In this document: piece by piece, positions 8,072-22,263 of the stretch
Numbering within the stretch: position 1 is the stretch's first letter
Layout: each line of letters starts with the position of its first letter
IMG/VR virus record: IMGVR_UViG_3300012208_000120
Location: 1-24,122 of that record
Length of the DNA: 24,122 nt
Strand: one strand, 5' to 3'
DNA from: a virus
Notes under the pieces: model-generated
The model's database searches: none
What the model was told of the DNA's origin: nothing
Seen by the model: the letters and a program-made list of their open reading frames with translations, nothing else
Translations under genes and position numbers: made by a program

Positions 8072-8215
8072 ATGTTGCAGCTTTTGTTGATGGTGATCCT
8101 CAACGTATGCTTTTGGGGACACGTATGTAAAAGGGTGATTTATGGCAAACTTCGGAAGTATTGTGGATTGGGTTCTTCGGCTCGAAGACCGGACCTTGGC
8201 CGGAAAGACCGTTAA
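8072..8215 (+). CDS. Possible 47-aa single-pass membrane peptide overlapping the endolysin gene
   Basis: ATG 8072 lies two bases after the previous stop and has GAGG at 8063-8066, 5 nt upstream. The frame gives a hydrophobic N-terminus (MLQLLLMVILNVCFWGHVC) and a strongly basic tail rich in K and R (KRVIYGKLRKY, then ARRPDLGRKDR), ending at TAA 8213-8215. It overlaps the first 74 nt of the endolysin gene in another frame. Genes on both sides are packed without gaps, so the 72-nt space before the endolysin favours a real coding start here. A short membrane peptide next to an endolysin could be a holin, antiholin or spanin-like factor, but nothing in the sequence proves this. The overlapping part could simply be a shadow of the endolysin. 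Confidence 0.42.
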   Translation: MLQLLLMVILNVCFWGHVCKRVIYGKLRKYCGLGSSARRPDLGRKDR

Positions 8216-8681
8216 CCTTGGTGACGGCGCGGGCTGGACGCGCTTCGGTATGACGTCTAAAAATGGCCGAGGAGTTCCCTGGGAGTTTTGGAATGACGTT
8301 ATGGGTGCTCCGCGCATGAACAACGATCTAGCGCTCATCGTGGCTAAGCATTTCTATTGGAACGAGTTTTGGACGCCGATGCAGCTTACGCATCTCCAGA
8401 ACGACGAGTTGGCCGCCACGCTGATGTCGTTCGGCGTGAACGACGGAGTGGAGCGCGCCACGAAACTTCTCCAGCAAGCCCTGGGGCTCCAGGTTGATGG
8501 CAAACTGGGCCCAGTAACCTTGGCCGCCGTCCTGAAGAATGACAGCGCCATATTGGCTTCTGAACTCAGGGCTGCCCAAGAGAACTTCTATCATGCAGTG
8601 GTTGCACTGCATCCAGACCGGCTGAAGGATCTAGCCGGATGGGTGAAAAGGGCTCGGGCAGTCTATCCTGATCTACCGTGA
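8142..8681 (+). CDS. Endolysin: GH108 N-acetylmuramidase with peptidoglycan-binding domain
   Basis: This 179-aa enzyme should cleave the glycan backbone of host peptidoglycan at lysis. The catalytic domain shows VLRLEDRTLAGKTVN with E15 at the place of the essential Glu of the usual E-G-G-Y motif, then GDGAGWTRFGMTSK (27-40), matching the family's DPGG-x-T-x-FGIT segment. YWNEFW (72-77) and FGVNDGVERATKLLQQALG (97-115) follow. The C-terminal part, LGLQVDGKLGPVTLAAV (114-130), is the peptidoglycan-binding repeat that goes with GH108. The length fits the family. There is no signal peptide or SAR segment, so it needs a holin; candidates are the peptide at 8072 and the membrane protein at 9269. 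The residues after E15 (DRT) differ from the family's GGY, which may affect activity. AAGGGTG at 8131-8137 is the ribosome binding site. Confidence 0.9.
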   Translation: MANFGSIVDWVLRLEDRTLAGKTVNLGDGAGWTRFGMTSKNGRGVPWEFWNDVMGAPRMNNDLALIVAKHFYWNEFWTPMQLTHLQNDELAATLMSFGVNDGVERATKLLQQALGLQVDGKLGPVTLAAVLKNDSAILASELRAAQENFYHAVVALHPDRLKDLAGWVKRARAVYPDLP

Positions 8682-21336: not shown

Positions 21337-21493
21337 TTTTACTGAAAAATTTCAGTTTACCCCAATAGCGGCCCTTAGCCGTGATACTGTCCATTTTTAA
21401 GACTTCTTTAATCGTCGAGCAGAGGATTCCCCAAAGGAAGCGACTACGAGTGGCTGATGCTCTGCAAAGGGGCCATTCCTAAGGTGTATTTCA
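21337..21493 (+). other. Non-coding leader before the serine protease gene
   Basis: No gene is seen. The palindrome ACTGAAA-AA-TTTCAGT (21341-21356) lies right after the previous stop and may be a weak terminator. GCAGAG (21419-21424) and CTCTGC (21460-21465) could close a long stem-loop over the region. AAGGTG (21481-21486) is the binding site for ATG 21494. No clear promoter was found. Confidence 0.45.
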
Positions 21494-22237
21494 ATGCGTT
21501 TAGGAACCGCGTTGTTGGCTGTGGTGTTGTTTGCATCGTCAGCGTTTGGAGAGATCCAACCCCTCAAAGGTTTTGACAAAAAGGTTTACGACGGGTCTCT
21601 GGCGCTTTACACCACCAGCGAATCACGCGGCGTCAAGGACAAGTTCACTTGTTCGGCGCAGGTCATCGCCAAGGTCGACGGCGGCTACGAAGTCCTGTCC
21701 GCGGGCCATTGCACTCCTGCGAGCCAGGAGATGCCGGCCGACATGACGTTCGCGGTGGCGAATAACCTGGGCAATACCAGGCATCCCGTCACCCTGATTG
21801 CGGCGAAGAAGGACGGCTCTAACGATTGGGCCATCTTCTACTACAAGACCGATAAAGAATATCCAGTCATTCCGTTAGGCGACGAGAATGAAGTTCAACT
21901 CAACAGCCCGACGATCGATGTGAACTATTCCCTGGGTATCGCCAAAGAAGTCAGCATGGGCGTCGTGTCCAGCACCGTTGCTTTGAGTGGCCCGATGAAA
22001 GGCTTCTTCGAAGTCACGCAGTTCGACTCGCACGGCGCATCCGGAAGTTCTGTAGTCAGCGAGAAGACGCACAAAGTTATCGGCATCGTGATCGCCGGCG
22101 TGGATGGAACCACAACCCCAACGTGGGTTGAGCCCGCCTCTTCGATTGCACCGCAGATCAAGGACCTAGATGTCGCGCACGCTCCCGCGTACGTAGCCCC
22201 ACCTAGAGTGTTTGAGCCGTTTCAAGACTACCATTGA
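21494..22237 (+). CDS. Exported trypsin-like (S1 family) serine protease
   Basis: The 247-aa protein has a Sec-type signal peptide (MRLGTALLAVVLFASSAFGE: basic start, hydrophobic core, likely cleavage after A17-F-G). The mature part carries the chymotrypsin-fold triad: H72 in LSAGHC, D111 in SNDWAIFY and S183 in SHGASGSSV (G-x-S-G). C53 and C73 stand where chymotrypsin has its C42-C58 disulfide, next to the catalytic His, which suits folding outside the cytoplasm. The last ~20 residues are P/V-rich. The size fits a bacterial S1 or S1B protease without extra domains. It lies between head genes and a fibre-like gene, behind its own leader and before two terminator-like hairpins, so it may be a single-gene unit. 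It could process virion or host envelope proteins; the target is unknown. Prohead proteases are cytoplasmic, so that role is less likely. Confidence 0.87.
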   Translation: MRLGTALLAVVLFASSAFGEIQPLKGFDKKVYDGSLALYTTSESRGVKDKFTCSAQVIAKVDGGYEVLSAGHCTPASQEMPADMTFAVANNLGNTRHPVTLIAAKKDGSNDWAIFYYKTDKEYPVIPLGDENEVQLNSPTIDVNYSLGIAKEVSMGVVSSTVALSGPMKGFFEVTQFDSHGASGSSVVSEKTHKVIGIVIAGVDGTTTPTWVEPASSIAPQIKDLDVAHAPAYVAPPRVFEPFQDYH

Positions 22238-22241
22238 ATAG

Positions 22242-22263
22242 CAGCGTTGATCGCTGTTTGGTT
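22242..22263 (+). terminator. Weak terminator-like hairpin after the protease gene
   Basis: CAGCG/CGCTG (22242-22246, 22252-22256) with a 5-nt loop is followed by TTTGGTTT. The stem is short and the T-run is interrupted. Confidence 0.4.

Follow-up and report, generated by a model that had tools for sequence, protein, structure and literature searches.

Origin of the question

Why would a soil phage encode an exported serine protease, and does the gene belong to the block of virion genes in which it lies? The question is raised by a viral fragment of 24,122 bases (the window, i.e., the whole stretch of DNA that was analysed), which encodes an endolysin, a large terminase, a SU10-like portal, an N4-gp56-type capsid protein and fibre-like proteins; a DNA polymerase of the PolA type and helicase/nuclease genes were read from the translations. 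By portal, its closest cultured relative was Tunturi_3 (35% identity), a podovirus of the acidobacterium Tunturiibacter (PMC11924767), which makes an acidobacterial host plausible for the window phage.

Table 1. Features of the protease locus and of related loci (window coordinates unless a locus is named)
Feature	Position	Strand	Basis
Endolysin (GH108 / PG_binding_3)	8142-8681	+	domain matches
Small holin-like membrane protein, resembling the one encoded immediately before the protease in L066 and L080	9269-9478	+	similarity
Structured 5′ leader RNA, type 1 (P1, P2, P3 and pseudoknot)	21412-21480	+	covariation; no Rfam match
Pseudoknot strand CAGAG	21420-21424	+	pairing with 21460-21464; covariation in L079 and L053
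Pseudoknot strand CTCTG, in the P3 loop	21460-21464	+	pairs with 21420-21424
Shine-Dalgarno-like AAGGTG, directly 3′ of the leader RNA, 7 nt before the start	21481-21486	+	sequence
Predicted exported trypsin-fold (Trypsin_2) serine protease, 247 aa, ATG start	21494-22237	+	Pfam, conservation, AF2, Foldseek
Sec-type signal peptide; cleavage predicted to follow residue 19 (AFG↓E)	21494-21550	+	features conserved in homologues
Cys53 codon, likely His-loop disulfide partner	21650-21652	+	invariant in 24 homologues
Catalytic His72 and disulfide Cys73	21707-21712	+	invariant; His aligned with the HtrA catalytic His
Catalytic Asp111	21824-21826	+	invariant; aligned with the HtrA Asp
Catalytic Ser183, in GASGS	22040-22042	+	invariant; aligned with the HtrA Ser
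Terminator-like hairpin just past the protease stop, closing the unit	22240-22258	+	consensus match only
Type 2 leaders, before exported/membrane proteins	L024:9892-9957; L060:5941-6006; L072:913-978; L081:3880-3945; L083:3938-4003; L042:6461-6526

The ORF encodes a predicted exported trypsin-fold protease

The product of the ORF matched the Pfam profile Trypsin_2 (PF13365) with E=1.5e-9 and 39.2 bits, the cut-off being 27.6. The initial annotation had described a signal peptide, an H72/D111/S183 triad and two cysteines, and all of these were confirmed: C53, H72, C73, D111 and S183 were invariant in 24 of 24 phage homologues, at identities down to ~25%, and in a phmmer alignment with mycobacterial HtrA the triad residues fell on the catalytic His, Asp and Ser. 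Sec-type signal peptides, read from sequence features (n-region charge, h-region and an AXA-like site), were present in the family members examined. AlphaFold (AF2) reached a pLDDT of 39 with only 5 sequences, and the final model, based on an alignment of 24 homologues, had a mean pLDDT of 91.3 and a pTM of 0.86. When this model was compared by Foldseek, HtrA/DegS/DegP protease domains were recovered (E ~1e-10, TM ~0.63); 494 PDB matches were obtained at E ≤ 0.001, and the best 50 of the 494 were nearly all HtrA-type proteases. The structure comparison that the initial annotation had proposed thus returned a predicted chymotrypsin fold, and the lack of such a fold, which had been named as the outcome against the assignment, did not arise. 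With a score above the curated profile cut-off, a conserved and ordered His-Asp-Ser triad and this predicted fold, assignment to Trypsin_2 within clan PA (S1-like) is well supported for the predicted exported protein, and we infer proteolytic activity and a periplasmic site for it. Purifying selection on the gene is indicated by dN/dS values of ~0.12-0.14 (0.186/1.50 and 0.213/1.55), obtained from the two pairs of homologues for which dS could be measured, and the GC and GC3 of the gene agree with those of the other genes of the phage.

The likeness to HtrA/Deg proteases (DegP, DegS and mycobacterial HtrA) extends to the best structural matches, export, the order of the triad and the chymotrypsin fold. 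However, identity to these proteins is ~13-20%, the phage protease has the His-loop cysteine pair, and no PDZ domain was detected in it with Pfam, the chain ending ~25 residues past the protease domain. Its scores against the NCBIfam HtrA/Do models (19.6, 16 and 16.2 bits) stayed below the respective cut-offs of 800, 416 and 450. Staphylococcus aureus Jep, a prophage-borne exported S1 protease (PMC12554148), is likewise a phage-encoded, secreted serine protease of the trypsin fold, but it is cargo of a temperate phage of a Gram-positive host and is related to the Spl proteases, and no Jep/Spl type S1 protease was among the 17 PDB sequence matches of the window protease at E up to 1. Annotated trypsin/HtrA-like proteins of the same fold are also found in phage genomes (Rhizobium phage AF3, Podoviridae ct9P15 and uncultured Caudovirales), with 14-18% identity to the window protease. 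The fold and the idea of phage-borne exported proteases were already known (PMC12554148), and the earlier statement that such an enzyme is not a standard phage part holds for this family, which had no match in 50,697 INPHARED records at the sensitivity of tblastn, but not for exported S1 proteases or trypsin/HtrA-like proteins of phages in general.

The protease gene as an exchangeable cassette

Homologues were gathered stepwise and formed three divergent classes, namely class A (the window, L024, L002, the L004 group, the L029 group and L040), class B (L057 to L061) and class C (L052 and L062 to L083). In several class C members the C-terminal segment is hydrophobic or amphipathic, which suggests that they are attached to a membrane. 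Members of the family were present in no fewer than 20 distinct contigs of uncultured phages, and this recurrence in independent phage contigs argues against the host contamination that the initial annotation had considered. Two scans of bacterial and archaeal genomes, which were pattern-based so that chromosomal homologues may be missed, gave one relative, in a metagenome-assembled genome (MAG) called archaeal, whose gene-bearing contigs are phage-like. Matches on plasmids were weak DegQ-like alignments and were rejected. For a class B member, PADLOC reported RT-protease and other defence proteins, most likely because these have the trypsin fold in common with it; no PADLOC match was obtained for the class A and class C members tested.

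Sister phages whose portals are 74-82% identical to that of the window showed no class A protease in the stretches examined; among the long sisters, G005 and G006 had no member of the protease family, and G007 encoded a class B protein with 33% identity to the window protease. Between the window and L024 the protease was 68% identical, as against 33% for the portal, 30% for the terminase and 38% for the capsid protein. The protease tree conflicts with the portal tree, and grouping the window with its sister in the protease tree was rejected (AU p 1e-36). Furthermore, the position of the gene varies among relatives, where it may precede the terminase or follow either the capsid gene or fibre genes, and in L024 and most class B and C phages it shortly precedes terminase and portal. 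Many relatives, of roughly 100 kb, encode a tyrosine recombinase/integrase. These comparisons support well the view that the protease gene is a mobile, exchangeable cassette of uncultured phages and not a virion gene. Of the earlier reading, the presence of an exported S1-type protease in the phage was upheld, and its membership of the virion block had to be given up.

A pseudoknotted leader RNA precedes the protease gene

The most unusual part of the locus is the leader RNA, which was overlooked in the initial annotation. An element of 66-70 nt was common to the regions upstream of protease genes. Its structure (type 1) was derived by eye from the sequences and scored on a plain MAFFT alignment of 15, in which 92.4% of the cells were paired, with 51 compensatory cells, as against at most 43% in slid versions, a control that somewhat favours the structure because it came from the same sequences. 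In an 18-member alignment built with the model, and biased towards the structure, 93.5% of the pairs were kept (at most 42% when slid), with 66 compensatory cells. Members that had not entered the derivation matched strongly (L052, E 5.6e-14; L019, E 1e-11); L053, also outside it, matched weakly (E 0.011), yet its pseudoknot was compensated. The variants of the pseudoknot were CAGAG/CTCTG, CAAGG/CCTTG and CAGGG/CCCTG. Since single-sequence folding did not show the leader to be unusually stable (z 0.5 for the window), the case for the leader rests on covariation and not on energy.

The type 1 model gave 20 matches in 700 kb (0.7 Mb) of phage sequence, corresponding to 18 distinct places after removal of duplicate fetches (L041/L057 and L040/L047). 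Seventeen of the 18 lay just before a protease and one (L019) before a different exported protein, counts that measure dedication within these phages and are not a census, because the loci had been chosen for proteases or a related portal. Whole records contained no more than one copy for each phage genome, and in the four Tunturi phages (Tunturi_1, 3, 4 and 5) neither the leader RNA nor the protease had a match. Between its 3′ end and the start codon there were ~5-15 nt, in most cases 8-13 (the start used being a few bases off for L053, L064, L077, L079 and L080). Compensatory base changes and a fixed place before a gene, by which cis-regulatory RNAs are generally recognised, were thus both present, and the type 1 structure and its link to the protease gene are well supported by the comparison of sequences. 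The element resembles the structured cis-regulatory leaders of Rfam in being a covarying RNA that ends beside the ribosome-binding site, but no Rfam 15 family reached a meaningful or gathering score on it with covariance models. Translational control would be its favoured function, because it sits at a fixed place beside the ribosome-binding site.

A second leader element (type 2) was identified in L024, L060, L072, L081 and L083, with 90% of cells paired and 13 compensatory cells in these five sequences only. It has a conserved CGAACANGGCACCAT-like loop. The type 2 model also matched ahead of a DUF5317 membrane protein in the sister G005. Type 2 was found with proteases of classes A, B and C, leader type being independent of class, and hence leader and protease recombine. 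L065, L073, L004 and L029 had neither leader type. We regard the odds as even that these leaders form a new regulatory RNA class devoted to exported proteins that phages make late, in which a pseudoknotted RNA would retard or gate translation of an envelope-attacking protease and recombine between protease classes as a control module, type 2 being an interchangeable alternative. Proteins of the DUF5317 membrane family are also encoded at L040:8297-8620, directly after the protease gene, and at L042:6494-6856, after a type 2 leader.

Holin-like neighbours of the cassette

In most relatives the protease gene directly follows a small holin-like gene, whose product has 1-2 TM segments, and precedes the terminase. 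In the window the slot after the holin-like gene is empty, with nothing before the next conserved gene, and 12 kb separate the cassette from the holin-like gene and the endolysin; where relatives carry the protease in the terminase slot, its distance from the endolysin is tens of kb. Compared with a lysis cassette, then, the protease adjoins holin-like genes in most relatives and not the endolysin. Several unrelated families of small membrane proteins occupy this position, ahead of the protease or the terminase slot (L059, L062, L063, L064, L066, L071, L075, L077, L079, L080, L081 and the window), and from their position and features they look like interchangeable holins; those of the relatives tested had no Pfam or PHROG holin match. 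The sister L019, which lacks the protease, carries in this holin-terminase slot, within the endolysin-to-terminase interval, type 1 RNA and a 167-residue exported protein of unknown family (L019:6475-7057).

Possible roles of the exported protease

The reading that we prefer, with a probability of roughly 0.45, is that of an exchangeable cassette in which the leader RNA is joined to a late, translationally tuned and secreted envelope protease, most likely aiding lysis. The leader would fold into P1-P2-P3 and the pseudoknot beside the ribosome-binding site and would tune the timing or the amount of protease translation. The protease would be made late in infection, cross the inner membrane via Sec, form its His-loop disulfide in the oxidising periplasm and cleave host envelope proteins, most likely contributing, together with holin and endolysin, to disruption of the outer envelope during lysis. 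Export, late-region placement, the holin-like neighbour in relatives and the rapid exchange of classes favour a target in the envelope at a late stage of infection, and the swapping of classes between closely related phages fits host-specific envelope targets. We infer a role in lysis, for which the protease would not be generally essential, because the sisters G005 and G006 show none. Further points against this reading are that the holin-like proteins had no holin match in Pfam or PHROG, that cassette and endolysin lie far apart, and that some relatives have neither leader.

The main rival is superinfection exclusion or host takeover, in which the exported protease would trim a receptor on the cell surface, or an envelope protein that assists injection, and so block other phages. 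An accessory, patchy and fast-exchanged gene in variable slots is what this would predict, the sites of the cassette also house other membrane or exported proteins (e.g., DUF5317 in G005 and L040), and a tyrosine recombinase is present in many relatives. Exclusion genes, however, are usually expressed early or in the prophage state, and a location among the late packaging genes, next to a holin-like gene, suits late action better, so that we consider exclusion unlikely, at clearly longer odds than the envelope protease acting at lysis. Longer odds still are given to an enzyme that is secreted, or released at lysis, and works outside the cell on matrix, competitors or nutrients. The signal peptide, the disulfide and the precedent of Jep (PMC12554148) would agree with it, as would the integrases of many of the roughly 100 kb relatives, but in a cell with an outer membrane a signal peptide alone reaches the periplasm only, and the C-terminal segments of several class C members suggest membrane attachment.

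The position of the window protease between capsid and fibre genes would suit a maturation protease that processes fibres or capsid, and ripening of the neighbouring fibre had been proposed in the initial annotation. This is very improbable, because the product is exported and the gene neighbours change between lineages; in addition, close sisters with 90% identical capsid proteins have no protease. Trypsin_2 proteins are common in bacteria, as the controls showed, and a host-derived contaminant or a chimeric assembly would account for one here; the chance of this is negligible, given that homologues adjoin terminase and portal in many independent viral contigs, that the matching MAG contigs are themselves phage-like, and that GC and GC3 values are in line with the rest of the phage.

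How the outer envelope is opened at lysis is an open question for some phages of outer-membrane bacteria that lack a recognised spanin. A concrete and testable candidate for this step, by a poorly known route of attack, is an exported protease encoded next to holin-like genes, and an RNA dedicated to such a protease, if true, would be a new layer of control. No description of the protease family, of its cassette behaviour or of the leader RNAs was found in the literature and libraries searched, absence from which is no proof of novelty.

Additional observations

The MAG named uncultured archaeon LFW-28 (L040, L052 and L053) includes at least three phage-like contigs, each with an exported protease, and the bin seems to contain phage sequence. 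Dense tRNA arrays, with dozens of Rfam tRNA matches, lie upstream of the terminase region in L002, L024, L059 and L060. The large terminase of L062 (L062:5185-7572) is apparently split into two ORFs, and the major capsid gene of the closest sister (L041:1662-2842) has an apparent interruption at ~residue 193, followed by a homing-endonuclease-like ORF.
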